A stretch of 64,000 bases of DNA, taken from contig NZ_AP027266.1 of assembly GCF_036322625.1 (NCBI RefSeq), positions 2,855,001 through 2,919,000 of the forward strand, in the 5' to 3' direction. The notes below the pieces were generated by a model that saw only the letters and a program-made list of their open reading frames with translations, did not search any database and had not been told where the DNA came from. The first letter of the stretch is position 1, and each line of letters opens with the position of its first letter. The position numbers were made by a program, and so were the translations under genes. This DNA comes from Roseicyclus marinus. GTDB lineage: Bacteria > Pseudomonadota > Alphaproteobacteria > Rhodobacterales > Rhodobacteraceae. Of this stretch, positions 40,675-59,554 are shown in pieces.

Positions 40675-41223
40675 ATGACCAGATCGCTCTCGCGTATCGC
40701 CGCCGTTTTCATGGCGGCCATCGTCGCAATAGCGCCCATCCCGTCAACGGCGCAAAGCGCACAGGAAACCGCCTTCGTCATGGCGCTGATGGAATCCATG
40801 AACACGCTGTCGATCCGGTTCAACCGCGAGGTTTGCGGATATGTTCTGCGCCATGCGAACGGCGCCTATTCCTCGACCAAGGTCAGCTGGGGTGGGCCGG
40901 CATCCTGCGCCTCCCTGCCGGTGGAGGACGGATTCGTGGTCGCATCAAGCTGGCATACCCATGCCGCATGGGACCCGGCCTATGACGGAGAGGTCCCCTC
41001 GATCCAGGATGTCGAAGGCGACATGCGCATGGGCGTGAACGGTTGGGTCAGCACGCCGGGGGGCCGGTTGTGGTTCGTCGATGGCCGGACCGGCAGCATC
41101 CGGCAGATCTGCGGTCGCGGCTGTCTGCCGGTGGACGAGAATTTCGGTGCCGAGGATTTCGGGCCCGTGAGCGAAAGCTACACGCTCGATGGTCTGTATG
41201 CCCGCTTCGGGCGCGACCGCTAG
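40675..41223 (+). CDS. Exported DUF4329 (JAMM-like) protein
   Basis: This 182-residue protein has a signal peptide (MTRSLSRIAAVFMAAIVAIA cut after PSTAQ). A domain follows with SSWHTHAAWDPAYDGEVPSI then QDVEGD, which gives the HxH...S-x2-D pattern of JAMM/MPN metalloproteases, as in DUF4329. Four cysteines (ICGRGC among them) could pair in the periplasm. It may be a periplasmic peptidase or toxin-like domain; the sequence alone does not say. AAGGAG precedes the start. It converges with the LysR gene with a 4-base overlap. Confidence 0.7.
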   Translation: MTRSLSRIAAVFMAAIVAIAPIPSTAQSAQETAFVMALMESMNTLSIRFNREVCGYVLRHANGAYSSTKVSWGGPASCASLPVEDGFVVASSWHTHAAWDPAYDGEVPSIQDVEGDMRMGVNGWVSTPGGRLWFVDGRTGSIRQICGRGCLPVDENFGAEDFGPVSESYTLDGLYARFGRDR

Positions 41224-42410
41224 GCCGATCTCTCCGCCACCTCCGCCCCGGCGCGACGCAATTCCCCAAGCATCAGGCGCTGACCCGGTGTCGGCATCCA
41301 GTCCCGGCGATACGTCAACCCGATGCTGCGACCGGGCCAGTCGATGCCGATGTCGAGCGTGGACAACAAGCCGTTGCGCAATTCGGCCCCCGCCTGCTGC
41401 CCGGAAATGCAGCCCAGCATGTCGCTCCGCCGCAGCAATTCGCGCATCAACAGGACCGAGCCGCACTCCACGATGCTGTCGGGCAGCGGCAGGCCCCGCG
41501 CCGCGAAAAGGGAGTCGAATTGGGTCCGCGCGGGTGTGCCCCTGCGCGGCACGGCCCAGGACTGCGTGACGAGCTGCGCGGGCGCGACCGTCCCCTGCCC
41601 TGCCAGCGGGTGGCCGGGTCGAACCAGAACGGCCAGCTGGTCGTTGAACAGCGGCTCCTGCACGACATCGGCGATGGGTTGCGGGTCGCGCAGCGCGCCG
41701 ATGATCAGATCGATCTCGCCCCGGCGCAATCCGGCCAGCATCTCGTCATAGGGCCCATCAAGAACGGCGATGATCGTTTTCGGGCGACGGGCCCTGAAGC
41801 CAAGGATGGCTTCGGGCAGGATCACGGACCTTGCGAGCGGCAAGGCCCCGATGACGATGCGCCCGACCTCGCGCCCGTCATGGTCGGCCAGTTCCGCCTC
41901 GCCCTGATCGAATTCGGCGAAAGCCAGACGGGCGGCCTGCGCCAGATCGCGACAGGGCCGCGTCGCGACGACGCCAAAGGCGCTCCGGTCGAACAGCGGT
42001 CGCCCGGCCTCGCGCTCGATCTGGGTGATGGCCCGGTGGACGGTGGGTTGCGCCAGCCCCAGCGCGCGGGCCGCCAGCGTGAAATTCTGCGTCTCGACCA
42101 TGGCGATCAGCGCCTGCAATTGCGCCGATGTGGCGGTCAGCACCAGACGCGGGGCCACCTGCGCCAGCGCACCATCCAGCCTTTCCATCCCCCGCCGCAG
42201 CCGGGACTGCACCAGCAGACCGCGATCGGTCAGGAAAAATCCCTTGCGCCTGCGGTCGAACAAGGCACCGCCTGCCGCCGCCTCCAGCCGGGACAGGGCC
42301 TGCGTGACAGCCGGTTGCGACACGCCGCAGCGTGCGGCCGCAGCCGTGGGCGTGCCCAGATCGGCGACCGCAAGGAAAACCCGGAAATGCCGCAGATTGC
42401 GGGGTTTCAT
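41220..42410 (-). CDS. LysR-type regulator with two helix-turn-helix domains
   Basis: At 396 residues this is about 95 longer than a normal LysR. The extra length is a complete second DNA-binding domain. HTH 1 is at about residues 5-65 (FLAVADLGTPTAAAARCGVS, QPAVTQALSRLE). HTH 2 is at about 95-160 (IAMVETQNFTLAARALGLAQ, PTVHRAITQIE). The substrate-binding domain follows (GRIVIGALPLARSVILPEAI). It shares a 4-base overlap with the dehydrogenase gene and is divergent from galBCD, so control of those genes, sensing a pathway intermediate, is the natural reading (inference). In P. putida GalR is also LysR-type. Confidence 0.85.
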   Translation of the reverse strand: MKPRNLRHFRVFLAVADLGTPTAAAARCGVSQPAVTQALSRLEAAAGGALFDRRRKGFFLTDRGLLVQSRLRRGMERLDGALAQVAPRLVLTATSAQLQALIAMVETQNFTLAARALGLAQPTVHRAITQIEREAGRPLFDRSAFGVVATRPCRDLAQAARLAFAEFDQGEAELADHDGREVGRIVIGALPLARSVILPEAILGFRARRPKTIIAVLDGPYDEMLAGLRRGEIDLIIGALRDPQPIADVVQEPLFNDQLAVLVRPGHPLAGQGTVAPAQLVTQSWAVPRRGTPARTQFDSLFAARGLPLPDSIVECGSVLLMRELLRRSDMLGCISGQQAGAELRNGLLSTLDIGIDWPGRSIGLTYRRDWMPTPGQRLMLGELRRAGAEVAERSA

Positions 42411-43291
42411 AAGGCCGACAGGGCGCGGTCGATCCGGGCGATCAGGTCAGGTTCGCCCGCCTCGACCCCGCGCCGCGACAGTGCCGCCTGCCATTCGGCC
42501 GTGGCGCGGCTCATCCCGTCGGACAGGCCCAGCGCCGCCACCGTCGCCGCCACCTCGCGCATCTCGGCGGCGCGGCGGGTGCCGTGCACCAGCATCCGTT
42601 CGAGGTTATAGGCCCCCCGCCCGCGCCAATCGACGCCGGGGTCGGATGCTTCGAGCGAGGCGATGACCGCCTCCTCCACCCCCGCGCGGCGGGCGGCAAG
42701 GAAACATTCCGCCGTCAGCGCCTCCATCCCCTTGATCATGACGGAGCGGATCATCTTGATGCTCGACGCAGCCCCCACCGCATCGCCGACGGGCTTGGGG
42801 CGCATCCCCAAGGATTCGAGCAGGGCCACGCCCTCGGCCGCATGGGGACCGGCAACAAGCAGCGGCACGAGATGGCGTTTGGGATGGACCGGGGCCATGA
42901 CCGCCACATCGACATAACGCCCGCCCGCGCCGTCGATGATGCCGGCCGCCTGTCGCTTGGTATCGGGCGCGCAGGAATTGCAGTCGAACCAGATGCAGCC
43001 CGGTGGCACATGCGGGGCCGCGGCCCGCGCCGCTTCAAGCGCCTGATCGGCGGTCACGACGCTGAACACCGCCGTGACCCCGTCCAACGTGCCCGCCAGC
43101 GTGCCTGCGTCATGGACCCGGTGCGCGGCGTAGCGCGCCCGCATCCCGGCAGCCGTCAAAGGATCCTCGGTCTTGAGGTCGAAGGCCGCGACATGCGCGG
43201 GCCGCCCATCCGCCCAGCCATCGAGGAAGGCTGTCGCCGCCTCTCCAAAGCCTACGAAGGCCAGTCTTTCGGGTTTGTGTTCTGTCGGCAT
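42407..43291 (-). CDS. 6-phosphogluconate-dehydrogenase-like NAD(P) oxidoreductase (DUF1932 C-terminus)
   Basis: This 294-residue protein has a Rossmann start LAFVGFGEAATAFLDGWADG (GxGxxx), FDCNSCAPDTKRQAAGIIDG, DVAVMAPVHPKRHLVPLLVA and a C-terminal helical domain of the DUF1932 type (AASSIKMIRSVMIKGMEALT). Such proteins oxidise beta-hydroxyacids; the KMIRS lysine suits catalysis. It is co-transcribed with the double-HTH LysR gene and divergent from galB, suggesting a hydroxyacid side-step in the same pathway. Start at ATG 43291 has GAGGG six bases upstream; ATG 43297 is too close to it. Confidence 0.75.
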   Translation of the reverse strand: MPTEHKPERLAFVGFGEAATAFLDGWADGRPAHVAAFDLKTEDPLTAAGMRARYAAHRVHDAGTLAGTLDGVTAVFSVVTADQALEAARAAAPHVPPGCIWFDCNSCAPDTKRQAAGIIDGAGGRYVDVAVMAPVHPKRHLVPLLVAGPHAAEGVALLESLGMRPKPVGDAVGAASSIKMIRSVMIKGMEALTAECFLAARRAGVEEAVIASLEASDPGVDWRGRGAYNLERMLVHGTRRAAEMREVAATVAALGLSDGMSRATAEWQAALSRRGVEAGEPDLIARIDRALSAL

Positions 43292-43363
43292 GTCCATCCC
43301 TCACCATGACCGGTCACAGCATGGAAACTCTACAGGGATAGCCCGCCGCCGCAATTCCATTAT

Positions 43364-43379
43364 AGCAAATACTTATGCT
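43364..43379. promoter_or_regulatory. Candidate LysR operator upstream of galB
   Basis: AGCA-N8-TGCT lies inside an AT-rich patch (ATTATAGCAAATACTTATGC) in the 169-base spacer between the divergent dehydrogenase and galB genes. The shape fits the T-N11-A boxes of LysR regulators. No experimental support is visible. Confidence 0.4.
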
Positions 43380-43460
43380 GCGGGACGGGCTTTCGAATTG
43401 CCCCGGACCGGTCGCGCATGAGAGCAACACGCAAGCGTCCCATTATCCGAAGGCCCTGCC

Positions 43461-44192
43461 ATGACCACCAAGAAGACCGCCCTCGTCCTGTCGGCCCATG
43501 CCGCCGATTTCGTCTGGCGCTGCGGGGGGGCCATCGCGCTTCATGCCCGGCTCGGCTACGAGGTGACCGTCGCCTGCATGTCCTTTGGTGAACGCGGCGA
43601 AAGCGCGAAGCTCTGGAAAGAGGGCAAATCGCTCGAGGAGGTCAAGGCGATCCGCCGCGCCGAGGCAGAGGCCGCGGCACGGGTTCTGGGGGTCCATCGT
43701 CTGGAATGCTTCGACCTGGGCGATTACCCCCTGCACCTGTCGCAGGACGACAAGATGCGGCTCGTCGACCTGATCCGGGCGGTGCAGCCGACCTTCATGA
43801 TGAGCCATTCGCAATACGACCCCTACAATACCGACCACATGTACATGACGCAGGTGGCGCTCGAATGCCGGATGATCGCGCAGGCCTGGGGCCACAACCC
43901 CGGCGAAAAGGTTCTTGGCGCGCCGCAGCTGTACCTCTTCGAACCGCACCAGACCGAGCAGATGGGATGGAAGCCCGACACGTTCCTCGACATCACCCCC
44001 GTCTGGGACCAGAAACGCGCCGCGATGGAAGAGATGAACGGGCAGGTCCATCTGTGGGAGTATTACACCCGCGTGGCCGAGCAGCGCGCCAACCATTTCA
44101 AGCGCAATTCCGGGGGACAGGCCGGGGGACGCGATTGCCGCTATGCCGAAGGGTTCCAGTCGATCTTTCCCCGCACGGTCGACGTGCTCTGA
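43461..44192 (+). CDS. galB: 4-oxalomesaconate hydratase (PIG-L/LmbE family)
   Basis: This 243-residue protein has the zinc motif SAHAADFVWRCGGAIALHAR (H13, D16) and a later YNTDHMYMTQ histidine, as in the LmbE-type hydratase GalB of Pseudomonas putida. GalB adds water to 4-oxalomesaconate to give 4-carboxy-4-hydroxy-2-oxoadipate in gallate/protocatechuate 4,5-cleavage. The assignment rests on this motif and on galC and galD following directly. Other family members are deacetylases, which the context makes unlikely. Confidence 0.85.
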   Translation: MTTKKTALVLSAHAADFVWRCGGAIALHARLGYEVTVACMSFGERGESAKLWKEGKSLEEVKAIRRAEAEAAARVLGVHRLECFDLGDYPLHLSQDDKMRLVDLIRAVQPTFMMSHSQYDPYNTDHMYMTQVALECRMIAQAWGHNPGEKVLGAPQLYLFEPHQTEQMGWKPDTFLDITPVWDQKRAAMEEMNGQVHLWEYYTRVAEQRANHFKRNSGGQAGGRDCRYAEGFQSIFPRTVDVL

Positions 44193-44243
44193 GCCGGGCA
44201 GGCAGCCTCCGACACGAGACATGACAGCGAAAGGAACGGGTAG

Positions 44244-44918
44244 ATGGGCGGTGTGGTGATCCGGAACGTGGACAGGGCCGATGCATCGGTCATCGCCGGG
44301 CTTGGCATGGCCGGGGTCGCGACCGTGCACGAGGCGCAGGGACGGCGCGGCTGTCTTGCGCCCCACCTGCGCCCGATCTGGACCGGGGCCAGCATCGCAG
44401 GATCGGCCGTCACCATCAGCGCGCCGCCCGGCGACAACTGGATGCTGCATGTGGCCATCGAACAGGTCCAGCCGGGCGATATCCTCGTTCTGGCCCCGAC
44501 CTCGCCCTGCACCGACGGCTATTTCGGCGATCTTCTGGCGACATCGGCGATGGCGCGCGGCTGTGTGGGGCTGGTGATCGACGCGGGCGTGCGCGACATC
44601 CGCGATCTTGGCGACATGGGCTTTCCCGTCTGGGCCAAGGCGATCAGCGCACAGGGCACGGTCAAGGAAACGCTGGGATCGGTCAACGTGCCCATCGTCT
44701 GCGGCGGCCAATCGATCGAGGCTGGCGACGTGATCGTCGCGGATGATGACGGGGTCGTTGTCGTGCGGCGGGCCGAGGCCGAGACGGTGCTGGCCGCCGC
44801 CCGGACCCGCCTTGCCGCCGAAAAGGCCAAGCGCGCCCGACTTGCTGCAGGCGAACTGGGCCTCGACATGTACGAGATGCGCGAAAAGCTGGCGCAAAAG
44901 GGCCTGCGCTATGTCTGA
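44244..44918 (+). CDS. galC: 4-carboxy-4-hydroxy-2-oxoadipate aldolase/oxaloacetate decarboxylase
   Basis: This 224-residue RraA-fold aldolase (also called LigK/ProA) contains [35 protein letters not shown] and [13 protein letters not shown], where the Arg-Asp pair binds metal and substrate. It splits the C7 hydroxy-tricarboxylate into pyruvate and oxaloacetate. An AAGGA ribosome site is 9 bases upstream. The 3' end overlaps galD by 8 bases, so aldolase and tautomerase are co-translated. Confidence 0.88.
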
Positions 44919-45984
44919 GGCGGACGGCATCCCCTGTCTCTGGATGCGGGGCGGCACGTCCAAAGGGGCCTATTTCCTGTCGCACGATCTGCCCGCCGAC
45001 ACGGGTCTGCGCGACGATCTCTTGCTGCGGATCATGGGCTCGCCAGATGCGCGGCAGATCGACGGGATCGGGGGCGGCGACCCCCTGACCTCCAAGGTGG
45101 CGATCCTGTCGCCGCCGTCACGGCCCGATGCGGATGTGGATTACCTGTTCTTGCAGGTTTTCGTCGACCAGGCGCTGGTCTCGGACGCGCAGGGATGCGG
45201 CAACATCCTTGCCGGTGTGGGCCCGGCAGCCATCGAACGCGGGCTGGTTCCGGCACGGATGGGCGAAACGCCTGTGCGCATCCACATGCGCAATACCGGC
45301 GAGATCGCGCTGGCCCGCATCGCCACACCGGGCGGGCGGGTAAGCTATGATGGCCGGGCGGCGATCGACGGCGTTCCCGGACGCCATGCCGCCGTGCCGC
45401 TGATGTTCACCGGGCTTGCCGGGTCGATGACCGGGGGGGCGATGCTGCCCACGGGTCAGGCCGTCGACCGGATCGAAGGGGTGGATTGCACGCTCATCGA
45501 CATGGGCATGCCCATCGTCGTGATGGACGCGGCCGATCTGGGCCTGAGCGGACAGGAAAGCCGCGAGGCGCTCGACGCCGATACGGCGCTCAAGGCACGG
45601 ATCGAGGCGATCCGGCTTGTCGCGGGACCAATGATGGGGCTGGGCGACGTGGCGGGAAAATCGGTGCCCAAGATGACGCTTGTCTCGGGCACCGGCGCGG
45701 GTGGCACGATCTGCACCCGCAGCTTCATCCCGCATCGCTGCCACGCCTCCATCGGGGTGTTTGCCGCTGTCAGCGTGGCGGCGGCCTGTCTCCTGCCAAA
45801 GGGGCCGGCGGCGCGGCTGGCGATGCTTCCCCCGGATGATCTTTTCCGCATCGAACACCCGACCGGCATGGCCGAGGTGATGCTGGACCGCGACGCGGAG
45901 GGCGGCATCAGGGCGGCAGGCAGCCTGCGCACGGCGCGCAAGCTGATGGACGGTCTGGTCTTTCCTGCCCCGGCCCGCGCCTGA
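44911..45984 (+). CDS. galD: 4-oxalomesaconate tautomerase (PrpF family)
   Basis: This 357-residue diaminopimelate-epimerase-like protein begins at [60 protein letters not shown] and [12 protein letters not shown] are the PrpF/GalD landmarks. The CGN cysteine is a catalytic candidate. It interconverts enol and keto forms of 4-oxalomesaconate; family relatives isomerise aconitates. Overlap with galC and tail-to-tail spacing of 5 bases to the next operon define it as the end of galBCD. A second paralogue lies at 48651-49742. Confidence 0.85.
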
Positions 45985-45989
45985 AAGGA

Positions 45990-46961
45990 TCAGCCCCGCA
46001 CCTCGGGGTTGATCATGTTGATCGGCGCGCCCTCCGCATAGGCGTTGATCTGGGCGTAGATGTCGGCGAATTGCAGGTCCAGTTCATCCTCGGTGACATA
46101 GCCGATATGGGGTGTGGCGATCACGCGGGGGTGCAGCACCAGCGGATCGACCGGGGGCGTCATCGGCTCGCGGTCAAAGACATCGAGCGCAAGGCACCCG
46201 GGCCGCCCCGCCTCCAGGGCGGCCTCGAGCGCGCCCTTTTCCACCAGCCCCGAGCGCGAGGTGTTCACGAAACTTGCCGTCGGTTTCATCGCCAGCAGAT
46301 CATCGCGCGTGATGATCCCCTTGGTCTCGGGTTTCAGCCGCACATGGACCGACACGAAATCGCTGTCGGCGAAAAACGCGGTCCGGCTGGCCGCCACGGG
46401 CTCGCCATCCGCCATCGCCCGTTCCCGCCCCCTGTCGGAGGCCCACCAGACCACCTCCATACCGAATGCCTGCGCATAGGCCGCGACCTGCTTCGCGATC
46501 CGCCCATAGCCATAGAGCCCAAGCCGCCGCCCGCGCAGGGTTTGGCCGGGCGCCAGTTGCCACTGCCCCGCCTGCAGGGCCGCCATCTGTTGCGGGATCT
46601 GCCGCGCCGCAGACAGGATCAGCGCAAAGGTCAGTTCCGCCGCCGCAACCGATGGTGCATCGGCATGCATGTTGGAACAAAGCAGGACGCCATTGGCGGT
46701 GCAGGCGGGCACATCGACATGCGGATAGACACTGCGCTGGCTGATAAGGCGCAGGTTCGGCAGGCGCTCCAGCAAGGGGGCCGTGATCGCCGTGCGTTCG
46801 CGGAACAGTACCAGCGCCTCGGCCGGTTGCAGGCGCTCGGCCAGCAGCGCCACATCATCGGTATGGTCGTTCCAGACCGTCACCTCATGCCCGTCGAGCA
46901 GGCGGAAACTGGGCAAGGTCCGCAGCGTGTCGAACCAATCGTCAAGGATATGAACCTTCAT
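45990..46961 (-). CDS. D-2-hydroxyacid dehydrogenase
   Basis: This 323-residue NAD-dependent enzyme carries GRRLGLYGYGRIAKQVAAYA (GxGxxx dinucleotide site), FVNTSRSGLVEKGAL (catalytic Arg), and ATPHIGYVTEDELD (catalytic His with its Glu). It reversibly reduces a 2-oxoacid to a D-2-hydroxyacid; phosphoglycerate and glyoxylate reductases are relatives. It is the last gene of the leftward tct operon, 14 bases after the ThDP enzyme, so it probably handles the oxoacid that enzyme makes or uses (inference). Starting at ATG 46961 (MKVHILDDWFDTL) removes an unrelated leader. Confidence 0.85.
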   Translation of the reverse strand: MKVHILDDWFDTLRTLPSFRLLDGHEVTVWNDHTDDVALLAERLQPAEALVLFRERTAITAPLLERLPNLRLISQRSVYPHVDVPACTANGVLLCSNMHADAPSVAAAELTFALILSAARQIPQQMAALQAGQWQLAPGQTLRGRRLGLYGYGRIAKQVAAYAQAFGMEVVWWASDRGRERAMADGEPVAASRTAFFADSDFVSVHVRLKPETKGIITRDDLLAMKPTASFVNTSRSGLVEKGALEAALEAGRPGCLALDVFDREPMTPPVDPLVLHPRVIATPHIGYVTEDELDLQFADIYAQINAYAEGAPINMINPEVRG

Positions 46962-46975
46962 CTCGGTCTGCCTCG

Positions 46976-48646
46976 TCACGGATTTTGGGCCGCAAGCTCG
47001 GGATGGGCGCGGCGGATCACGGGGGAAAACACGCGGTCGGAAATCGGCACGTCCCAAACAGCCGCACCACCCGTGCGGGCAAAGCCCGCGATCAGCTCGG
47101 GCAAAGCCGCCAGATCGGTGATCGTCTCGCCCCCGATGCCGAAGCCCCGCGCGATGGCGGCAAGATCCGTGGGACCGAAAACTGCACCGTCATCGGCCAA
47201 ACCCTCGGCCCTGAGCTTGTGGATCTCGGACCCATAGGCACGGTCGTTCAGAACGATGATCAGGATGTTCATCCCGTGCCGCCGGATCGTCTCCAGCTCC
47301 TGCACATGCATCAACAGGCTGCCGTCCCCATCGAACAGGACAACCGTGTCACCGGGCCGCGCGGCGGCAACCCCCATGGCAAAGGAGGTGCCGTTGCCGA
47401 TGGCCCCGAATTCCCGGATCGTCAGGAACCGGTCAAAGGGCCGCGACGGCATATGGGCCACGTAATAGGAACAATGGCCCGAGGAATTCACCATCTGCCA
47501 ATCGCCCGGCAGATGCGCCTCCAGTGCGGCCACCACGTCGCGCGGATCATGCAGGCCGGGCTCGGGCGCGAAAGCGCTGCCATCGGCGGGGGTGGTGGCG
47601 ATCCGCTGCGCCAACTCGGGCGTGCAAAGCGCGACAGGCCGCGCGGCGACCGCTGCCGCCAGCGCCTCTGCCCCCAGCCGCGCATCCGCGCGCAGATGCG
47701 CATGGGCGGCAAGCCGACCCTGCGACACCGCCTGCGGATCGGTATCGATCTGCAAAACCCGCGCCTTGGGCCAAAGCTTGCCCGCATCGGCATTGTGCGA
47801 GGCAAGCGAACAGCCCACGGCGATCACCAGATCAGCCTCTGCCAGAACGGCGCGCGCGACATCGGAGGAAAAGCCCCCCGCCACGCCAAGGCAATGGGGA
47901 TGGCCTGCAAAAAGCCCCCGCGCTGGCAGACTGGTGGCCAGCGGCGCATCGAGCCTTTCGGCCAGCGCGCGGCAGGCCGCCGCCGCCCCGGCCTCGGCCG
48001 CGCCAAGACCCGCCATCACCACGATGCGCCCCGCCCCCGCGACCAGATCGGCGGCACGCGCCACATCCGCAGGATTGGGGGGGATCGGCCCGACCTCGGG
48101 CAGGATCGCGGTCGAGGGTGCGGGCAAAGCGGCGGGACCAGTCCACGCCCCATGCTGCAGATCGAAGGGGACACCCAGAACCACGGGCTTGCGCGTCATC
48201 CGCGCCTCGAGGAAGGCATCGCGGATCGCCACGGGCAACCGATCGGGCCAATGCAGCGCATGGTAGCTGGCCCCTGTCGCGGTGACGAAAGGGGCCTGAT
48301 CGATCGCCTGGTTGTACCAGCCTTTCGAAATCGGTGCCTCACCGGCCAGAACGACCATCGGAATGCGCGCCCGCACGGCGGCAGGCAAAGCCGTCATCAG
48401 CTGTGTCACCCCCGGCCCGCAGGTCACGGTCGCCAGACCCACCTCGCCCGATTTGCGGGCATAGGCCATGGCGGCGGCCACAGCGCAGTGTTCATGGCGA
48501 ACATAGACCATCCGCGTCCCTGCCTCGGACAGGCGGGTGGCGAAATTCATGTTCGCATCGCCCAGAAGCGCGAAACAGGTGCCCGTGCCTTCCTGCGCCA
48601 CGGCCCGCGCCATCATGTCGAAGACATGCAGCCCCGATGCCCCCAT
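46976..48646 (-). CDS. Thiamine-diphosphate enzyme, acetolactate-synthase-like
   Basis: This 556-residue three-domain ThDP enzyme has YVRHEHCAVAAAMAYARKSG with catalytic E52. The Rossmann-like middle domain reads AADLVAGAGRIVVMAGLGAA. The cofactor motif is LFDGDGSLLMHVQELETI, closed about 25 residues later by LNDRAYG. Members decarboxylate or join 2-oxoacids. There is no small regulatory subunit, so it is not biosynthetic acetolactate synthase. It lies 4 bases after the PrpF paralogue, inside the tricarboxylate operon, where a decarboxylase of the imported acid or its oxo-form is likely (inference). Confidence 0.83.
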   Translation of the reverse strand: MGASGLHVFDMMARAVAQEGTGTCFALLGDANMNFATRLSEAGTRMVYVRHEHCAVAAAMAYARKSGEVGLATVTCGPGVTQLMTALPAAVRARIPMVVLAGEAPISKGWYNQAIDQAPFVTATGASYHALHWPDRLPVAIRDAFLEARMTRKPVVLGVPFDLQHGAWTGPAALPAPSTAILPEVGPIPPNPADVARAADLVAGAGRIVVMAGLGAAEAGAAAACRALAERLDAPLATSLPARGLFAGHPHCLGVAGGFSSDVARAVLAEADLVIAVGCSLASHNADAGKLWPKARVLQIDTDPQAVSQGRLAAHAHLRADARLGAEALAAAVAARPVALCTPELAQRIATTPADGSAFAPEPGLHDPRDVVAALEAHLPGDWQMVNSSGHCSYYVAHMPSRPFDRFLTIREFGAIGNGTSFAMGVAAARPGDTVVLFDGDGSLLMHVQELETIRRHGMNILIIVLNDRAYGSEIHKLRAEGLADDGAVFGPTDLAAIARGFGIGGETITDLAALPELIAGFARTGGAAVWDVPISDRVFSPVIRRAHPELAAQNP

Positions 48647-48650
48647 CGGA

Positions 48651-49742: not shown

Positions 49743-49779
49743 CTGTCAGCCCGTGTTTTCAAACCCAGAATGGAAGGAA

Positions 49780-49825
49780 CCGGGCCTTTGGCCCGGCAAA
49801 GGCGGGGGCGTTGCGCCGCCCCCGC
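49780..49825 (-). terminator. Two tandem hairpins between tctAB and the PrpF gene
   Basis: On the minus strand, GCGGGGGCG pairs with CGCCCCCGC (stem 49802-49825). This is followed by CCGGGCC-AAA-GGCCCGG (49780-49796) and TTCCTTCC. They lie inside the operon, so partial termination would lower expression of the enzymes relative to the transporter. Confidence 0.55.
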
Positions 49826-51860: not shown

Positions 51861-51933
51861 GGTCTGTTCCTCCGGGAAACTCTGGCGCGATCCCCCGCGC
51901 GAGCCACTCGCGCGGGGGGTTGGAAAGCGCCGG

Positions 51934-53034
51934 TTACTGGAGCGTCACGCCGTAATCGTCACGCAGCCAGTTCAGCACGAATTCCCGTGCCTCGTCCGAG
52001 ACGGTGATCGCCGCCTCATGCGCGACCACGGCCGCGTCGCCGATCATCTGGGGATAGACACCCAGTTCCGCCGCCGAGATCTCGGCGAAATCGGGACGGG
52101 CAAGGATCGCGGCCATCGCGTCCTGGTACATCGCGACCACTTCGGGCGAGGCCGAACCGGGCAGGTAGACCAGCTTCTGCGCCGCAAAGCCCGACACGAA
52201 GAAGGCACGCCATGCATCCCAGGCCACGCCTTCGGTCTCGCAGCCCGCCGTCGCCTCGCACACCTCGGCAAAGGTCGGGATGTCGGGGAAGGTCGGATCG
52301 CGCACGATATCGCCCGCGTCATCCAGAACGCCCCAGCTCATCACCGGAACGGCCAGGCCCTGATCGACCAGCGGCTGGACGCTCGCGATATAGGCAGACG
52401 AGGTCTGGTAATCGATGTTGGCTTCGCCGCGCTCGAACATCAGGCGGCCATCGCCCCGACCCTCGATCCCGAAGACCGGCTCGACCTGGAGGCCAAGCAT
52501 CTGGAAGGCCAGCAGCGGCACGAGGTCGAGCGTCGTCGCACCCTGGCTGCCGAAGATGAAGAATTCGTCCTGCAGATCATCCAGGTCGCCATCGAAGCGC
52601 GCGCCCAGATCGGCGGGAAGATAGACGACACCGCCGGTGCCCGAGGCCAGAACCGGCTGCCAATCGCGGTATTCGTAGCGCACGCGCGGATCGCGCAGCA
52701 GGTAGGGGAACTGGGTCGAGCCCGAGGTGCCGAAGATCAGCGTGCCGTCATCGGTGGTCTGTTCCTGGAACCAGTTGGCGCCCGCCGTCGATCCCGCACC
52801 GGGGCGATAGCCCACGACGACCGTGGGATTGCCGGCCAGCGCTTCGTTCAGCAGGGGCGCAAAGAAGTTGGCCCAACGCGCCGAACCGCCCGATTCCGAG
52901 AAGGGGATGACGAATTCGACGGTCTCGCCCGCGAGGTCCGCCTGCGCAGCAGTCGGCAGGCCGGCAGTCAGCGCCAGCGCCGAAACGGCGCAAAGCGACA
53001 GGGCCACGCGGCGCGTGGTGGAAAATTGGCTCAT
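51934..53034 (-). CDS. tctC: Tricarboxylate transporter substrate-binding protein TctC
   Basis: This 366-residue periplasmic binding protein has a signal peptide (MSQFSTTRRVALSLCAVSAL, cut after AAQA) and the TctC/Bug fold: ETVEFVIPFSESGGSARWAN, GNPTVVVGYRPGAGSTAGAN. It captures the carboxylate for TctAB. GGGAGGA lies 6 bases before ATG 53034. It leads the five-gene leftward operon and is divergent from the response regulator, the same arrangement as tctCBA/tctDE of Salmonella. The ligand cannot be read from the sequence. Confidence 0.87.
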   Translation of the reverse strand: MSQFSTTRRVALSLCAVSALALTAGLPTAAQADLAGETVEFVIPFSESGGSARWANFFAPLLNEALAGNPTVVVGYRPGAGSTAGANWFQEQTTDDGTLIFGTSGSTQFPYLLRDPRVRYEYRDWQPVLASGTGGVVYLPADLGARFDGDLDDLQDEFFIFGSQGATTLDLVPLLAFQMLGLQVEPVFGIEGRGDGRLMFERGEANIDYQTSSAYIASVQPLVDQGLAVPVMSWGVLDDAGDIVRDPTFPDIPTFAEVCEATAGCETEGVAWDAWRAFFVSGFAAQKLVYLPGSASPEVVAMYQDAMAAILARPDFAEISAAELGVYPQMIGDAAVVAHEAAITVSDEAREFVLNWLRDDYGVTLQ

Positions 53035-53179
53035 GATATCCTCCCAAAGATACCGCGGGCTCCTCCCCACGGCAGATCAAGCAGGGCCTGTTTCGCCCTT
53101 GCCGCGCATTGTGTGACCTGCGAACCTTGCGTCAAGCTGTCGTGTCACGAGAAAAAGGTCTGGGGGGAGGAACCGCGGC

Positions 53180-53860
53180 GTGCGGATCGTTCTGGTCGAG
53201 GATAACGACGGACTGGCCAAGGGGATTGCCTACCGGCTTGAAGACCTTGGCCATGGCGTCGACGTGCTGTCGGACGGGGATGCCGCCGATGCCTTCTTGC
53301 GCCGCGAAACCTCGGACCTCCTGATCCTCGACATCAACCTGCCGGGCACGGATGGGCTGACCATCTTGCGCAACCTGCGCGCGCGCGGCGATGAACGCCC
53401 GGTGCTCATGCTGACCGCCCGCACCGAAACCGAACACCGCGTGCGGGGTCTGGACGCCGGTGCCGATGATTACCTCGTCAAACCCTTCGAGATGGAAGAA
53501 CTGGAGGCGCGTGTCCGCGCCCTGACCCGGCGCAGCCCCAGACCGCTGCGGCGTCTCGTGGCGCTGGGGGCGGTCAGTCTTGATTGCGACGCGCGGCAGG
53601 TCTCGGTCGAGGGCCAGCCCATCGACATGCCCCGCCGCGAGGTCAGCCTGATCGAACGGCTCCTGACCGCGCAGGGGCGCGCCGTATCGAAACAGGACCT
53701 GCTCGACCATATCTACGGCACCGGTGCCGATGTCGAAGAAGCCGCGATCGAGGTTCACATCTCGCGGCTGCGCAAACGGCTGCGTCCGCATGGCCTGTCG
53801 ATCAAGGTGCAACGCGGAATCGGCTACAGCCTGGCCGAAACGACGGCGGGGGCGCCATGA
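53180..53860 (+). CDS. tctD: OmpR-family response regulator (TctD-like)
   Basis: This 226-residue protein has a receiver domain with the acidic pair E7/D8, phosphorylated D51 (LLILDINLPG), and K in DYLVKPFE. The C-terminal winged helix is LGAVSLDCDARQ to VHISRLRKRLRPHGLSIKVQ then RGIGYSL. It starts at GTG 53180 after a GGGGGGAGG ribosome site. It overlaps the sensor gene by 4 bases and is divergent from tctC, so activating the transporter operon is the expected role. Confidence 0.88.
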   Translation: MRIVLVEDNDGLAKGIAYRLEDLGHGVDVLSDGDAADAFLRRETSDLLILDINLPGTDGLTILRNLRARGDERPVLMLTARTETEHRVRGLDAGADDYLVKPFEMEELEARVRALTRRSPRPLRRLVALGAVSLDCDARQVSVEGQPIDMPRREVSLIERLLTAQGRAVSKQDLLDHIYGTGADVEEAAIEVHISRLRKRLRPHGLSIKVQRGIGYSLAETTAGAP

Positions 53861-55251
53861 ACGCCTCGACCTCGCTCCGTCTTCGGCTGACGGCGATCAT
53901 CCTCGGCCCGCTTCTGGCCATCGCCCTGGCCGTCGGGTTCTGGCAGGTCCATGACGCCCGCGAAAAGGCCGCCGATATCTTCGACCGAAGCCTTCTGACC
54001 GTGGCCTTGGCGGTCGCCGGCGATGTGGCGCGCTCGAACGGCAATGCCGTCTCGCTCGAAACGCGCGATCTCTTGTCGGACACGTCGGGCGGGCTGGTGT
54101 TCTATCATGTCTTCGCCCCGAACGGCTATTACGTCACGGGCTATGCCACCCCGCCCGTCCGGCAAACACCCGAAGAACGGTCCGAAGACCCCTATTCCTA
54201 CTACAATTCCACCTATCACGGTCAGGCCGTCCGGGCCTTGCGCCTGCGCGACGTGACAACGGTGGACGGCATCACCGGCGTTTTCACCGTCACCGTCTGG
54301 CAGCACACCGAAGTGCGCGATGCCCTGATGCGCGACCTCGCGCGCCGCGCCTTCACCGTCATGGCCATCCTGATTGGAACGGTCGCCTTCGTGGTCTGGT
54401 TCGGGGTGCGGATCGGGCTTTTGCCGCTGACCGACCTGGAAGATGCGATCTCGCGCAGGTCCTCCGACGATCTGTCCTCGATCCGCCGCCCCGTCCCGCC
54501 CGAAATCCGGGGCCTCGTGCTGCGGCTCAACACCTTGTTCGGACAGCTTCAAACCACCATGGCGCGGCAGGCGGAATTCGTCTCGAATGCCGCCCATCAA
54601 TTGCGCAATCCCATCGCGGGCGTTCTCGCCATGGCCGAGGCGGTCCGCTCCGCCCCGACCGAACAGGCGGCGCGGGCGCGGGCGGATGAATTGATGGCCT
54701 CGGCCCTGCATATCCGCGATCTCGCCAACAAGCTCCTGACGCTGGAACGCGCCACGGTGGTGGCAGGTCACAGCGAAAGCCTCGAACTGGGCGAATTGGT
54801 CGAAGATGTGGCCGACCGCTTCCGCCTGCCTGCGCGCACCCGTGGCGTGACGCTGGCCCTCACCCTCCCCGAGGAGGAGGTGATTGCGCTCGCCGACCGG
54901 GTCATGCTGTCCGAGGCGCTGGTGAACCTTCTGGACAATGCGCTGCTGCACGGCGGGCCGGCGATGAAGCGGATCGCGGTGACCCTCTCGGTCAGTGGGG
55001 GACAGGCCCGGATCACTGTCGCCGACGACGGGCGCGGGGTTGCGCCCGGCGATATCGCCACCGTGCTGTCGCGCTTTGGTCAGGCGGGGCCGTCGCAGGG
55101 CAGCGGTCTTGGCCTTTCGATCGCCGAGGCCGTGGCCCAGAACCATGGCGGCACCATAGACCTTGGCCGCGGGCCGGAGGGCGGGCTTCAGGTCACGCTC
55201 ACCCTGCCCCTCGCCGCGCGCGCGCCGCTTGTCCGTCAGGCCGCCGAATAA
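53857..55251 (+). CDS. tctE: Sensor histidine kinase (TctE-like)
   Basis: This 464-residue protein has two membrane helices (residues ~10-30 and ~167-189) that enclose a 135-residue periplasmic sensor domain of the 2CSK_N type. The dimerisation helix follows, with phospho-acceptor H247 (FVSNAAHQLRNPI). The ATPase domain has NLLDNALLHGG (N box), VADDGRGV (G1) and GSGLGLSIAEAV (G2). The periplasmic domain probably senses the external carboxylate directly or through TctC. Confidence 0.88.
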   Translation: MNASTSLRLRLTAIILGPLLAIALAVGFWQVHDAREKAADIFDRSLLTVALAVAGDVARSNGNAVSLETRDLLSDTSGGLVFYHVFAPNGYYVTGYATPPVRQTPEERSEDPYSYYNSTYHGQAVRALRLRDVTTVDGITGVFTVTVWQHTEVRDALMRDLARRAFTVMAILIGTVAFVVWFGVRIGLLPLTDLEDAISRRSSDDLSSIRRPVPPEIRGLVLRLNTLFGQLQTTMARQAEFVSNAAHQLRNPIAGVLAMAEAVRSAPTEQAARARADELMASALHIRDLANKLLTLERATVVAGHSESLELGELVEDVADRFRLPARTRGVTLALTLPEEEVIALADRVMLSEALVNLLDNALLHGGPAMKRIAVTLSVSGGQARITVADDGRGVAPGDIATVLSRFGQAGPSQGSGLGLSIAEAVAQNHGGTIDLGRGPEGGLQVTLTLPLAARAPLVRQAAE

Positions 55252-55262
55252 CTGCCCTTTCG

Positions 55263-56324
55263 TCAGCCATGCCCGTCGCGGTCCGACACGCGAAACAGCC
55301 GCGCCGCCAAGGGCGCCCCGCTGATCACGATCAGGATCCGGGTCAGGTGGTGCACGATCACAAAGCCCAGATCGGCCCCCGCCACGATGGCCAGAACCGT
55401 CATCTCCGCCTGCCCGCCGGGGGCAAAGGCCAAGAACCCCTCCACCGGTCGCGCCAATTCGAAGAACACCACGATTTCCGTGAACAGCGCGGCCAGACCC
55501 GCAAGGATCAGCACGAACACGATGCCCGCCGCCACGTCGCGGCGCAATTCGTGCAAGGTCACGCCGACATAGCCCACCCCGATACCGATCCCGATCAGGT
55601 ATTGCGCCGCCAGGATCGCCTCGGCCGGGGGGCGGAAATGGATGATGTCGGTCAGGCTCAAGCCCGCCGTCACGATCATCGGCCCCAGGATCGAGGCTCC
55701 GAACAACCCGATCCGCTCGCCGCCCTTCCAGCCCACCAGCGCCGCCACGACCATGATCCCCAACTCGGTCAGGGGAATGTCGCCCACGGGCTGTCCGATG
55801 GGATTGTCCAGCGACTGACCGAAACCGAATGTCAGGATCAGGGGGGCAAGCGTGATGATGACCAGAACCCGGGTCGCATGGATCAGGCTCAGCGCGCGCA
55901 CATCCGCCCCTGCCTCCTGCCCGAAGATCACCATGTCCTGCAAACCGCCCGGCATCGCGGCATACCACGATGTCGGCCAGTCGAAGCCATAGACCTTGCG
56001 AAAGAACGGCACCCCGATCGCGGCAATCGCGATGATGTAGACGGGGATCAGCGCGACCGACAACGCCATCTGCGGCAGCTGCGCCACCAGCGCGGGGGTG
56101 ACCGAGGCACCGACCGCCACGCCCAGGATCGTGCGCGCCGCGACCGAAACCTGCCCCATGCCCCGCAACCGCACCCCCGCCAGCGCAGCGATCAGACAGG
56201 CGGTCATCGGCCCGAACAGGAACGGCAGCGGCAGCCCCAACAGCCAGAAGACAGCCACACCCGCCGTCGCCAGGGCCAGCGTCAAAATGCGGTCGCGGGC
56301 AGCAGGCGTGAGGGGCAAGGGCAT
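55263..56324 (-). CDS. AbrB-family membrane protein (putative carboxylate permease)
   Basis: This 353-residue protein has about ten membrane segments forming two repeats (TAGVAVFWLLGLPLPFLFGP; VGDIPLTELGIMVVAALVGW). It contains AMPGGLQDMVIFG and AFAPGGQAEMTVLA, matching the AbrB / former ammonia-monooxygenase-regulator family (two AbrB_dup repeats). The family is thought to be transport-related. It is divergent from GntR-tcuAB, in the place where Salmonella has the TcuC permease, so carriage of the tcu substrate is a reasonable guess. Confidence 0.75.
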   Translation of the reverse strand: MPLPLTPAARDRILTLALATAGVAVFWLLGLPLPFLFGPMTACLIAALAGVRLRGMGQVSVAARTILGVAVGASVTPALVAQLPQMALSVALIPVYIIAIAAIGVPFFRKVYGFDWPTSWYAAMPGGLQDMVIFGQEAGADVRALSLIHATRVLVIITLAPLILTFGFGQSLDNPIGQPVGDIPLTELGIMVVAALVGWKGGERIGLFGASILGPMIVTAGLSLTDIIHFRPPAEAILAAQYLIGIGIGVGYVGVTLHELRRDVAAGIVFVLILAGLAALFTEIVVFFELARPVEGFLAFAPGGQAEMTVLAIVAGADLGFVIVHHLTRILIVISGAPLAARLFRVSDRDGHG

Positions 56325-56337
56325 GGCGATCTCCGTA

Positions 56338-56374
56338 TTGCATCCTCTTGTATCCAACTGTATGCAACTTGCAA
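56338..56374. promoter_or_regulatory. Cluster of TTGYAT/ATRCAA half-sites, likely GntR operator
   Basis: The spacer between the divergent AbrB and GntR genes contains TTGCATCC, TTGTATCCAA, TGTATGCAA and TTGCAA within 37 bases. This AT-rich island resembles the TTGTATACAA-type palindromes bound by FCD-type GntR regulators. It overlaps the region just before both genes. Confidence 0.55.
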
Positions 56375-56389
56375 CCGAAAGGAGGGCCC

Positions 56390-57085
56390 TTGGCCGAAAA
56401 ACCCGACAGCAAGGCGCAAGGACGCCCCGAAACCGGACAGGGGCGCGATGCCTATGAACGCCTGATCGCCGAGATCCGGTCCGGCGCGCTGCGCCCCGGC
56501 GACCGTTTGACCGAGACCGAACTGGCCGACCGTCTGGGCATCTCCCGCACGCCCGTGCGCGAGGCGATCCGCCTGCTCGAGGCCGATGGCCTGGTCGAAC
56601 ACCAGCCGCGTGCGGGCGCGCGCATCCGTCGGCTCGACCTTGCCGAAGTGACCGAGCTCTACGAGATGCGCGCTGTCCTCGAAGGCACCGCCGCCCGGTT
56701 CGCCGCGCGCGCCGCCTATGACAGCGAACTGGCCGAATTGCAGGCGATCAACGCCGAAATGGCGGCGGCCTCGGGCAATCCCGAACGGCTCTACCATGCG
56801 AACCGCCAGTTTCACGGCATCTTGCTCAATGCCGCGCGCAACCGCTTTCTCTGGCGCTCGGTCGAGGCGGTGCAGAAAACGCTCCTGATCCTTGGCCGCT
56901 CCACCATGGAAGAGGCCGACCGCGCGCAGGCCGCCGTCGCCGAACATGCCGCCATTCTCGATGCGCTCCGCGCCCATGACGGTGACGCGGCCGAGGCCGC
57001 GATGCGCCGCCACATCGAAGGGGCGCATCGCGCCCGCCTCAAGCAATTGCGCGATCTCGCGACAACCGAAGGGGAAAGCCCATGA
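56390..57085 (+). CDS. GntR-family regulator, FCD type
   Basis: This 231-residue protein has a winged helix (DAYERLIAEIRSGALRPGDR, LTETELADRLGISRTPVREA) and an all-helical FCD ligand domain with the metal/ligand histidines spread through VTELYEMRAVLEGTAARFAA, HANRQFHGILLNAA and HAAILDALRAHD. The only start with a ribosome site (AGGAGG) is TTG 56390; a TTG at 56348 lies inside the operator cluster. It overlaps tcuA by 4 bases. It most likely represses tcuAB, and the AbrB permease divergently. Confidence 0.85.
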   Translation: MAEKPDSKAQGRPETGQGRDAYERLIAEIRSGALRPGDRLTETELADRLGISRTPVREAIRLLEADGLVEHQPRAGARIRRLDLAEVTELYEMRAVLEGTAARFAARAAYDSELAELQAINAEMAAASGNPERLYHANRQFHGILLNAARNRFLWRSVEAVQKTLLILGRSTMEEADRAQAAVAEHAAILDALRAHDGDAAEAAMRRHIEGAHRARLKQLRDLATTEGESP

Positions 57086-58476
57086 CACGGGTAGATGCCA
57101 TCACCTGGGACGTGGTCGTGGTCGGCGGCGGCAATGCCGCGCTCTGTGCCGCGATCGAAGCTGCGGAAACCGGCGCGCGCGTCGTGATGCTCGAGGCCGC
57201 GCCGAAACCCTATCGCGGCGGCAATTCGCGCCACACGCGCAATTTCCGCTGCATGCATCGCGGCCCCCTGTCGGTCCTGACCGGCAGCTACGAAGAAGAG
57301 GAATATTTCGACGACCTTATCCGCGTCACCAAGGGCAAGACCGACGAGTATCTGGCCCGGATGACGATCCGCGACAGCGAAACCTGCCTGCCGTGGATGG
57401 AACGGCACGGCGTCGCCTTCCAGCCCTCGCTCTCGGGCACCCTGTCGCTCTCGCGCACCAACGCCTTTTTCCTCGGCGGCGGCAAGGCGCTGGTGAACGC
57501 CTATTACAACACGGCCGAGGATCTGGGCGTCACCGTCCTTTACGAGGCCGAGGTGCGCCATGTCACCGTGGCCGAGGGCCGGTTCCAGGGGCTCGATGCC
57601 CGCATCGGCGGCAAGGATCTGCGCATCGAAGGCCGCGCGCTCGTTCTGGCCTCGGGCGGGTTCCAGGCCGATATCGACTGGCTCGCCGATGCCTGGGGCC
57701 CTGCGGCGCGCAACTTCCTGATCCGGGGCACGCCCTACAACCGGGGCGTCGTGCTGCGCGACATGCTCGACCAGGGCGCCGACAGCGTGGGCGACCCCAC
57801 CCAATGCCATGCCGTGGCCATCGACGGGCGCTCGCCCAAATACGACGGCGGCATCGTCACGCGGCTTGACTGCGTGCCCTTCTCGGTCGTGGTGAACCAG
57901 AACGGTGATCGCTTCTACGACGAGGGCGAAGATGTCTGGCCCAAGCGCTACGCGATCTGGGGCCGTCTGGTCGCGGCCCAGCCCGAACAGGTGGCCTATT
58001 CCATCATCGACGCGAAATCGCTGAACCTGTTCATGCCCTCGGTCTTCCCCCCCGAAACCGCCGACACGATCGAGGGGCTGGCCCAGAAACTCGGCCTACC
58101 GGGCAACAAGCTGCGCGAAACCATCGACGCTTTCAACGCCGCCTGCCGCAGCGGCGATTTCCATCCGACCGAGCTTGACGGCCTTGCGACCGAGGGGCTC
58201 ACCCCGCCCAAGACCAACTGGGCGCGGCCCATCACCGAACCGCCCTTCTACGGCTATTCGCTGCGCCCCGGCGTGACCTTCACCTACCTGGGGCTCAAGG
58301 TGGATCGCACGGCACGGGTTTCGGCCCATGGCGCACGGCTTCACAACATCTGGGCCGCAGGCGAGATCATGGCCGGTTCGATCCTCGGCGAGGGGTATCT
58401 GGCCGGCTTCGGAATGACCATCGGAACCGTTTTCGGACGCATCGCAGGCCAGGAGGCCGCAGCCCATGTCGCTTGA
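57082..58476 (+). CDS. tcuA: FAD-dependent tricarballylate dehydrogenase TcuA
   Basis: This 464-residue fumarate-reductase-like flavoprotein shows VVVVGGGNAALCAAIEAAET (FAD Rossmann), AAPKPYRGGNSRHTRNFRC, ALVLASGGFQADIDWL and the C-terminal IWAAGEIMAGSILGEGYLAG. It oxidises tricarballylate to cis-aconitate, which enters the citric acid cycle, and hands electrons to TcuB. Both its partners (regulator upstream, tcuB downstream with 11-base overlap) are adjacent. Substrate may be a related tricarboxylic acid. Confidence 0.88.
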   Translation: MTRVDAITWDVVVVGGGNAALCAAIEAAETGARVVMLEAAPKPYRGGNSRHTRNFRCMHRGPLSVLTGSYEEEEYFDDLIRVTKGKTDEYLARMTIRDSETCLPWMERHGVAFQPSLSGTLSLSRTNAFFLGGGKALVNAYYNTAEDLGVTVLYEAEVRHVTVAEGRFQGLDARIGGKDLRIEGRALVLASGGFQADIDWLADAWGPAARNFLIRGTPYNRGVVLRDMLDQGADSVGDPTQCHAVAIDGRSPKYDGGIVTRLDCVPFSVVVNQNGDRFYDEGEDVWPKRYAIWGRLVAAQPEQVAYSIIDAKSLNLFMPSVFPPETADTIEGLAQKLGLPGNKLRETIDAFNAACRSGDFHPTELDGLATEGLTPPKTNWARPITEPPFYGYSLRPGVTFTYLGLKVDRTARVSAHGARLHNIWAAGEIMAGSILGEGYLAGFGMTIGTVFGRIAGQEAAAHVA

Positions 58477-59554
58477 CATCACCCCCACCCTCACCGCCAC
58501 CGAGGAAGCCCGTCGCCAGGTCGAGATCTGCAACGCCTGCCGCTATTGCGAGGGCTATTGCGCGGTCTTCCCGGCGGCCTTTGCCGAACGCAGCTTTTCG
58601 GATGGCGACATCACCCAGCTTGCCAGCCTCTGCCACAATTGCCGGGGCTGCTATTACGCCTGCCAATATACCGAGCCGCATGAATTCGCCCTGAACCTGC
58701 CCGCAGCCCTGGCCGAGGTGCGGGTGGAAAGCTGGGCGCGCTTTGCCTGGCCCGGCGCTTTCGCACGGCTGTTCCAGACCCATGGCGTGGCATTGGCCGC
58801 GGCCCTCGTCCTTGGCACCGCGCTCATTTTCGCCGCGATCCGCCTGCTCGGCACCGGCGCGGGCGACGGCTTCTATGCCTATCTCTCGCATTCGGCGATG
58901 GTCGCGATCTTTGCCCCCGCCTTCCTCTTTCCGCTTCTGGCGCTGGCCATGGGCGTCCGCCGCTACTGGCACGAGGTCGGCGGCACGGCCGTCACACTTG
59001 CCGATCTGCGCGCAGCCCTCATCGATGCGGGGCGGATGCGCAACCTGTCGGGCGGCGCGGCCGAAGGTTGCAACTACGAAAAGGGCGACCGCTATTCGGT
59101 GGCGCGCAAACATGCCCATCATGCCGTGGTCTGGGGCTTTCTTCTGTGCTTTGCCTCCACCTCTTCGGGCACGATCCTGCACTATGTCCTCGACATGCCC
59201 GCCCCCTATCCGTTCTTCAGCCTGCCCAAGCTTCTGGGCGTGCCGGGGGGCATCTTGCTGACGCTCGGGGCTGCGGGACTTGCGATGCTCAAGCTGCGCG
59301 CCGATCCCGCGCTTGGGGCGGTTGCGGCATGGGGTGGCGAAATGGCCTTCGTCATCTTGCTGGGCCTGACGGGTCTGACCGGCCTTGCGCTTTATGCCGC
59401 GACGGGCACGGGCCTTGTCGCGCCGCTACTGGCGCTGCACCTGGGCACGGTTCTCGCCTTCTTCGTGACGCTCCCCTATTCGAAAATGGCCCATGCCACC
59501 TATCGCCTCGCCGCCCTGACCCGCGATGCGCAACTCAAGCGGCGGGCAGGCTAG
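58466..59554 (+). CDS. tcuB: TcuB iron-sulfur/heme electron-transfer membrane protein
   Basis: This 362-residue protein has two ferredoxin-type clusters (CNACRYCEGYC, CHNCRGCYYAC) at the N-terminus. Membrane helices follow with histidines that could bind heme (HAHHAVVWGFLLCFASTSSG, ILHYVLDM). TcuB takes electrons from the reduced flavin of TcuA and passes them to the respiratory chain. An AGGAGG site lies within tcuA. A CitB-type name is also used for this family. Confidence 0.87.
   Translation: MSLDITPTLTATEEARRQVEICNACRYCEGYCAVFPAAFAERSFSDGDITQLASLCHNCRGCYYACQYTEPHEFALNLPAALAEVRVESWARFAWPGAFARLFQTHGVALAAALVLGTALIFAAIRLLGTGAGDGFYAYLSHSAMVAIFAPAFLFPLLALAMGVRRYWHEVGGTAVTLADLRAALIDAGRMRNLSGGAAEGCNYEKGDRYSVARKHAHHAVVWGFLLCFASTSSGTILHYVLDMPAPYPFFSLPKLLGVPGGILLTLGAAGLAMLKLRADPALGAVAAWGGEMAFVILLGLTGLTGLALYAATGTGLVAPLLALHLGTVLAFFVTLPYSKMAHATYRLAALTRDAQLKRRAG

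Follow-up and report, generated by a model that had tools for sequence, protein, structure and literature searches.

A galBCD cluster beside a tricarboxylate transporter operon in Roseicyclus marinus: a possible outlet for imported non-aromatic acids

Gene content of the island

The window analyzed here is a 64,000-nucleotide stretch of Roseicyclus marinus DNA (contig NZ_AP027266.1, positions 2,855,001 to 2,919,000), and the positions given below are counted within it. Between 41220 and 59554 it carries an island in which galBCD, genes of the lower gallate pathway, lie next to an operon for a tripartite tricarboxylate transporter (TTT) and share the locus with tcuAB. The gallate-pathway genes are on the plus strand: galB (43461-44192) encodes a 4-oxalomesaconate (OMA), or KCH, hydratase with a PIG-L fold (305 bits to solved structure 5cgz), galC/ligK (44244-44918) a 4-carboxy-4-hydroxy-2-oxoadipate (CHA) aldolase (379 bits; PRK09262 cut-off, 179), and galD (44911-45984) an OMA tautomerase (489 bits; cut-off, 440). 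The galD start is the ATG at 44911, which overlaps the galC stop and corrects the start given in an earlier note on this DNA.

Tail to tail with galBCD (43461-45984), across a gap of five bases, ends a minus-strand operon (53034-45990), here called the tct operon, in the order tctC, tctA-tctB fusion, prpF2, and genes for a thiamine diphosphate-dependent enzyme (ThDP enzyme) and a D-2-hydroxyacid dehydrogenase (HADH). The TctC-like solute-binding protein (51934-53034; open frame to 53070, start predicted) is divergent, scoring 23.1 bits, under the Pfam cut-off of 27. TctA (49845-51860) gives 393 bits to PF01970, and its fused, weak TctB-like C-terminus gives 20.7 bits, under the Pfam cut-off of 29.1. 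HADH (45990-46961; open frame to 47057, start predicted from homologues) was assigned by family scans.

PrpF2 (48651-49742), the second PrpF-family isomerase of the island, is OMA-tautomerase-like: it scores 470 bits (cut-off, 440) with the same model as GalD, to which it is 47% identical. Its closest solved structure is E. coli YbhH (421 bits), ahead of 6p3j, 6p3h, and 6p3k, which are entries for OMA isomerase (365 to 370 bits). The lysine and cysteine stretches of the OMA-tautomerase-like PrpF family, which we take to be the catalytic residues of the family, align in PrpF2. The ThDP enzyme (46976-48646; open frame to 48688, start predicted) has an AHAS/POX/HACL-like fold, and a structure model of it (mean pLDDT of 87) goes no further than that fold.

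Divergent from tctC lie genes for a TctD-like response regulator (53180-53860, plus strand; 205 bits, cut-off 337) and a TctE-like sensor kinase with a 2CSK_N domain (53857-55251, plus strand; family scans). These are followed by an AbrB-family (PF05145) membrane protein (55263-56324, minus strand; open frame to 56357, start predicted) and, on the plus strand, by a GntR/FCD regulator (56348-57085; family scan), tcuA of the tricarballylate dehydrogenase family (57082-58476; 687 bits, cut-off 369), and tcuB for a 4Fe-4S electron-transfer partner (58466-59554). TcuB scores 358 bits with TIGR02484 (cut-off, 246.6) and 374 bits with PRK15033, under its cut-off of 524. Family scans found the genes that the earlier note had listed (galBCD, PrpF2, ThDP, HADH, TctC-TctAB, TctDE, AbrB, and GntR-tcuAB) where it had placed them.

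Two genes that played no part in that note's reasoning lie upstream of galB and divergent from it. One, assigned by family scans, encodes a LysR-type regulator (41220-42410, minus strand) with two N-terminal HTH_1 domains and a putative GalR-like role; the tandem helix-turn-helix (HTH) arrangement is kept in 23 of 23 homologues examined (at least 45% identity). The other encodes a DUF1932/6-phosphogluconate-dehydrogenase-like protein (42407-43297, minus strand; family scan). An operator-like site of the form ATAGC-N5-CTTAT (43362-43376, plus strand), with the half-site TTCGAATT after it, stands 99 bp before the galB start codon.

OMA sources, linkage, and conservation

We searched the whole genome, a single contig of 3,552,491 bases that is 99.93% complete, for enzymes that form OMA. 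There were 0 matches to PF02900, the LigB family of GalA/LigB-type OMA-forming dioxygenases, and no match in the genome to the VOC-type extradiol enzyme seen in related gal loci (E of ≤1e-20) or to LigI (E of ≤1e-15); ligC was not searched for. The earlier note's statement that the island has no ring-cleavage enzyme thus holds genome-wide for the LigB family and this VOC type, with no LigI match either, and the gallate dioxygenase operon elsewhere in the genome that it had set as part of a refuting condition was not found among LigB-family enzymes. A general Glyoxalase model gave 13 VOC-domain matches in the genome. The sole double match among them is a 333-codon frame (C1:2952225-2952992) with two VOC domains; it is unlinked to galBCD and is a caveat on the absence of a ring-cleavage enzyme. 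Pfam gives this protein the generic Glyoxalase model alone, NCBIfam gave no match, and by eye it resembles hydroquinone-dioxygenase-like proteins. GalB is likewise present, and a VOC-enzyme, LigB, or LigI match absent genome-wide, in three relatives: R. marinus (L094), Roseibacterium persicicum (L095), and R. mahoneyensis (L096).

In a sample of the family comprising 198 genomes, one per genus, 50 have GalB. The VOC-family enzyme is present in 22 of the 37 galB loci fetched for a survey and lies between galB and galC in 17; examples of this VOC-superfamily extradiol dioxygenase are at L043:12563-13522 (minus strand) and among galB loci L055-L092. Its co-occurrence with GalB is strong: it is found in 28/50 genomes with GalB and 7/148 without. 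For one such protein (P0008), NCBIfam gives catechol 2,3-dioxygenase as the best model, at 294 bits against a cut-off of 320, and the top-scoring solved structure, 9wgj (337 bits), was deposited as a catechol dioxygenase. The VOC enzyme may be a gallate-type ring cleaver from a superfamily other than that of GalA/LigB. In several VOC-type galB loci a TRAP transporter adjoins the LysR gene (DctP was confirmed for one solute-binding protein, the others being judged by eye), so TRAP, VOC enzyme, and GalBCD together make a common form of galBCD. The form in the window has neither TRAP nor VOC enzyme and lies beside the TTT operon.

Co-occurrence was measured with 11 family-sample genomes whose ThDP match reached at least 63% identity, kept from 38 with a match at E of ≤1e-60. 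Excluded were G040, G176, G050, and G037 (best match, 47 to 51%), 22 genomes at 32 to 39%, a second copy in G025 (54%), and G133, where the match is split into two pieces (71 and 74%); G133 has TcuA and the VOC enzyme and no GalB. The OMA sources counted leave out LigB matches below 140 bits, which are presumably YgiD/DODA-like, and LigI matches below 48% identity. GalB was present in 10/11 genomes with the ThDP enzyme versus 40/187 without it (Fisher P = 4e-6), and TcuA in 11/11 versus 42/187. For the VOC enzyme the counts were 4/11 versus 31/187 (P = 0.11), and for LigB at ≥140 bits, 0/11 versus 38/187. With G133 added, GalB stands at 10/12 (P = 2e-5), and the VOC enzyme and LigI reach P = 0.04. 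These and the following co-occurrence P values are too small because the genomes are related. A second, named-locus set of 46 genomes was drawn by a ThDP search, for which reason it gives no rate of ThDP; it includes orders beyond those of the family sample, shares five genomes with it (counted once), and leaves out L136. GalB occurs in 40 of these 46 operon-bearing genomes.

Of the 46 distinct genomes with both galB and the ThDP gene, 17 have the two no more than 20 kb apart when counted by contig position, against a chance linkage taken as 1% per genome, a rough figure and not a simulation. Linked gal genes fell within the 10 kb fetched on either side in L094, L096, L099, L114, L115, L119, L120, L121, L129, L130, and L131, and linkage was also found in the family genomes G002, G025, and G074; the orientation and order of the gal genes vary among tct-linked loci. 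A VOC gene sits beside galB in 4/17 operon-linked loci versus 22/35 unlinked survey loci (counted within the locus; P = 0.017). The earlier note had joined these blocks into one system, which is partly supported. They are indeed not independent, given the co-occurrence with GalB and TcuA and the repeated linkage to galBCD or tcuAB in differing orders; the substrate, the order of reactions, and the origin of the acids in lignin breakdown by other microbes, which that note proposed, stand as conjecture. The VOC enzyme accompanies the operon in many relatives, so the operon is not everywhere a replacement for ring cleavage, and a simple rule that it replaces the dioxygenase was rejected (VOC enzyme in 32/46 named-locus genomes).

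Genomes with galBCD and no counted OMA source are concentrated among those with the operon. Within the family sample, 7/10 genomes with ThDP and GalB had neither VOC enzyme nor LigB, versus 2/40 with GalB and no ThDP (P = 4e-5); among the 46 distinct genomes the figure was 16 (P = 0.001 versus the same 2/40), and with LigI also required to be missing it was 13/46 versus 2/40 without the operon (P = 0.005). No weak LigB match was found in the 16 genomes. Weak LigI matches (<48% identity) occur in G218, G221, and G235. The 13 source-less genomes are scattered over a GalB tree of 86 rows, on which their distribution takes 11 changes, with at least 6 forced by starred branches.

The tct operon recurs in a ThDP-based scan of named genomes, in which the best 80 of 326 relatives were kept: TctC, TctAB, and ThDP occur together in 49 of the 80, and none of the beta-proteobacterial homologues among the 80 had tct-operon context at the thresholds used. 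Some of the 49 loci are cut by contig ends. Their neighbors include PrpF2 (42 loci), a TauE-family gene (32), AbrB (31), HADH (29), TctD/E (24), TcuA (20), DUF1932 (13), GalB (9), LigI (5), and VOC (1). With its gene order repeated across dozens of genomes, the grouping is not due to chance. Other genes seen there are a gamma-glutamyltransferase-like gene (22 loci; e.g., L113:3601-5391), not found in the window, an RraA/HMG-aldolase-like gene (13; e.g., L095:12762-13247, minus strand), mostly opposite the operon end, and an isocitrate/isopropylmalate-dehydrogenase-like gene (10; e.g., L117:7867-8928), in several loci between tctAB and prpF2. One operon copy, L040 (G197), looks degenerate, with HADH in two pieces, a short PrpF2, and the tct genes absent; G197 was retained in the counts.

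Judging from substitution patterns, galBCD is under purifying selection. Values of pN/pS between the window and the R. marinus relative were 0.076 for galB, 0.145 for galC, 0.221 for galD, 0.137 for the ThDP gene, and 0.071 for prpF2. Compared with three more distant relatives, galBCD gave pN/pS like that of five pairs of VOC-containing operons, and a decaying relic was rejected on this ground. Among 50 stretches upstream of galB, the exact ATAGC-N5-CTTAT form turned up in 23 (the window and 22 others), 89 to 114 bp from galB: in 12/24 loci with a VOC gene and 11/26 without, and in 17/26 upstreams with this LysR gene and 6/24 without. Its weight rests on this recurrence, since the single occurrence in the window compares with 0.43 expected when one mismatch is allowed. 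The putative operator agrees at 10/15 bases with the GalR site reported for Pseudomonas NGC7 and at 7/11 defined bases with the consensus of KT2440 (PMC12314914). In P. putida KT2440 and Pseudomonas NGC7, OMA is described as the GalR effector or a strong inducer (PMC9942251 and PMC12314914). If, by analogy, OMA is the effector here too, galBCD would have been kept as an OMA-controlled operon in a genome that lacks any known OMA-forming enzyme.

A possible tricarboxylate route and its rivals

The presence of galBCD without any of the OMA makers searched for, alongside an uncharacterized uptake-and-processing operon, suggests a pathway supplied by non-aromatic acids and not by aromatic rings. 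Our reading is that the island forms a single modular catabolic system: imported non-aromatic tricarboxylic acids, and not ring cleavage, would feed the lower gallate pathway. We put the probability of this reading at roughly 0.4. We infer the substrate, the order of steps, all reactions of the tct operon, and the role of OMA as effector. One or more acids would be imported by TctC-TctAB under the control of TctDE. A 2-hydroxy group would then be oxidized by HADH, and a saturated tricarboxylate would be desaturated by TcuAB with electrons passing to quinone. PrpF2 would move or isomerize the double bond, yielding OMA-type (C7) or aconitate-type (C6) acids. The ThDP enzyme would most likely decarboxylate a 2-oxo-tricarboxylate, e.g., OMA to aconitate semialdehyde. 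OMA would be sensed by the LysR regulator and taken by GalD, GalB, and GalC to pyruvate and oxaloacetate, while C6 acids would enter the citric-acid cycle as aconitate.

Several results weigh against this route. No aldehyde dehydrogenase, which the proposed decarboxylation would need, was found among the conserved neighbors of the operon; HADH was not found in 20/49 loci, nor PrpF2 in 7/49, some of these being cut by contig ends; and the VOC enzyme is frequent, occurring in 28/40 operon-bearing named-locus genomes with GalB. Our confidence stays below one half because of the missing aldehyde dehydrogenase, the loci without HADH, and this frequency. In G207, G216, G227, and G239 a VOC gene lies beside an operon-linked galB. 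Five VOC-less linked loci (L096, L119, L120, L121, and L131) lack the exact operator form upstream of galB, and no GalR-like site was found before tctC or tcuA in the window. Independent pairs on the GalB tree went in the predicted direction by 3.0 to 0.1, too few for significance (median P, 0.25). TTT systems import other acids too.

The strongest rival holds that two separate modules share the island: TctCAB, PrpF2, ThDP, HADH, and TcuAB would convert tricarballylate or aconitate-like acids to aconitate, and galBCD would serve some other source of OMA or CHA. It fits the distinct transcription units and regulators (LysR, TctDE, and GntR), the LysR-type site found in the window only before galB, the 29/46 genomes with ThDP and GalB in which no galB was found within 20 kb of the operon, and the VOC enzyme in so many GalB-bearing genomes of the named set. 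Against it stand the specific co-occurrence with GalB, the linkage in differing gene orders, and the over-representation, among genomes with the ThDP enzyme, of galBCD lacking a known OMA source, and we consider it rather unlikely.

It is improbable that an ordinary aromatic pathway is at work, with a ring-cleavage enzyme that went unrecognized or lies outside the assembly, for example on a plasmid. The 13 VOC-domain matches, one of them the two-domain frame, leave room for such an enzyme, as do a single-contig assembly from which plasmids may be missing and a search that covered LigB, one VOC type, and LigI. However, the relatives L094, L095, and L096 match none of these sources either, and the two-domain protein is generic Glyoxalase to Pfam, nothing to NCBIfam, and unlinked to galBCD.

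A further proposal, which we regard as very improbable, is that the importer takes up 2-pyrone-4,6-dicarboxylate (PDC) released by other microbes and that a lactonase opens it to OMA. Some relatives do have a PDC link, which this genome lacks: a LigI homologue (284 bits to the PDC hydrolase 4d8l) lies near the ThDP operon in 5/49 TctAB-ThDP loci and in L129, but this genome has no LigI match at E of ≤1e-15, and 13 of the 16 genomes with ThDP and GalB and without VOC enzyme or LigB have no LigI at ≥48% identity. Degradation of a C3 organosulfonate such as sulfolactate by the tct operon, with TTT import, a hydroxyacid dehydrogenase, a ThDP enzyme, and a TauE exporter, is far-fetched and was rejected: a TauE-family gene occurs in 32/49 loci and the ThDP enzyme is distantly similar to Xsc (sulfoacetaldehyde acetyltransferase), but it scores 159 bits against the Xsc cut-off of 676, the window yielded no TauE-family homologue near the operon, and we know of no role for PrpF2, TcuAB, or galBCD in organosulfonate breakdown.

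Returning to the single modular system, a wider form of it is that the lower gallate pathway broke away from aromatic catabolism on several occasions in Alphaproteobacteria and was reused for imported aliphatic tricarboxylates via OMA, which a new ThDP enzyme and a new PrpF-family isomerase would form or drain to aconitate. We advance this tentatively, as a possible but doubtful generalization. If it were true, the pyruvate/oxaloacetate end of gallate breakdown would be a general sink for C7 tricarboxylates, the environmental pool of such acids would be worth measuring, and the tct operon would be a handle for finding them. As a caution, galBCD alone would then not be enough to annotate aromatic catabolism.

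Related systems and neighboring genes

The gallate genes of P. putida KT2440 (galTAP, galBCD, and galR) and the galBCD of Pseudomonas NGC7 have galB, galC, galD, a divergent LysR gene, and an operator similar to the putative one here in common with the island, and the same end products are expected. The island differs in lacking GalA or another of the OMA-forming enzymes searched for, in the two HTH domains of its LysR protein, and in the linked TTT operon. For TcuA and TcuB we take Salmonella tcuABC (tricarballylate utilization) as the comparison system; both proteins are shared, above curated cut-offs (TcuB by TIGR02484). The Salmonella system has a LysR regulator and the MFS transporter TcuC, whereas the island has GntR and AbrB/TTT neighbors and adds the PrpF2, ThDP, and HADH enzymes. 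Within the locus, neither a TcuC transporter nor a LysR-type regulator was found next to tcuAB, whose neighbors are AbrB, GntR, and uxuA.

The importer and its two-component pair we compare with the TctCBA-TctDE citrate transport system, with which the island shares TctA, a TctC-like protein, and a divergent TctD-like regulator and sensor kinase. In the island, TctA is fused to a weak TctB-like part, TctC is divergent, and the operon runs on into catabolic enzymes. E. coli ybhHI, an OMA-tautomerase homologue with a putative tricarboxylate transporter, shows the same pairing of isomerase and transporter; the passages of PMC9068703 on it mention neither galB nor a gene for a ThDP enzyme or HADH, and E. 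coli has no GalB homologue according to a passage of PMC9942251.

Downstream of tcuB lie uxuA, a fructuronate-reductase-like gene, and a pfkB-family kinase gene. The DUF1932 gene next to the LysR gene also occurs in 13/37 surveyed galB loci. On the far side, a DUF4329 protein (40675-41223) adjoins the LysR gene, and the same adjacency is seen in R. marinus (L094). In some Roseicyclus-like genomes (L121, 17128-21654, and by eye also L131 and L114), the LysR gene is adjoined by TauE-family, IclR-like (by eye), aldehyde dehydrogenase, and FAD monooxygenase genes.

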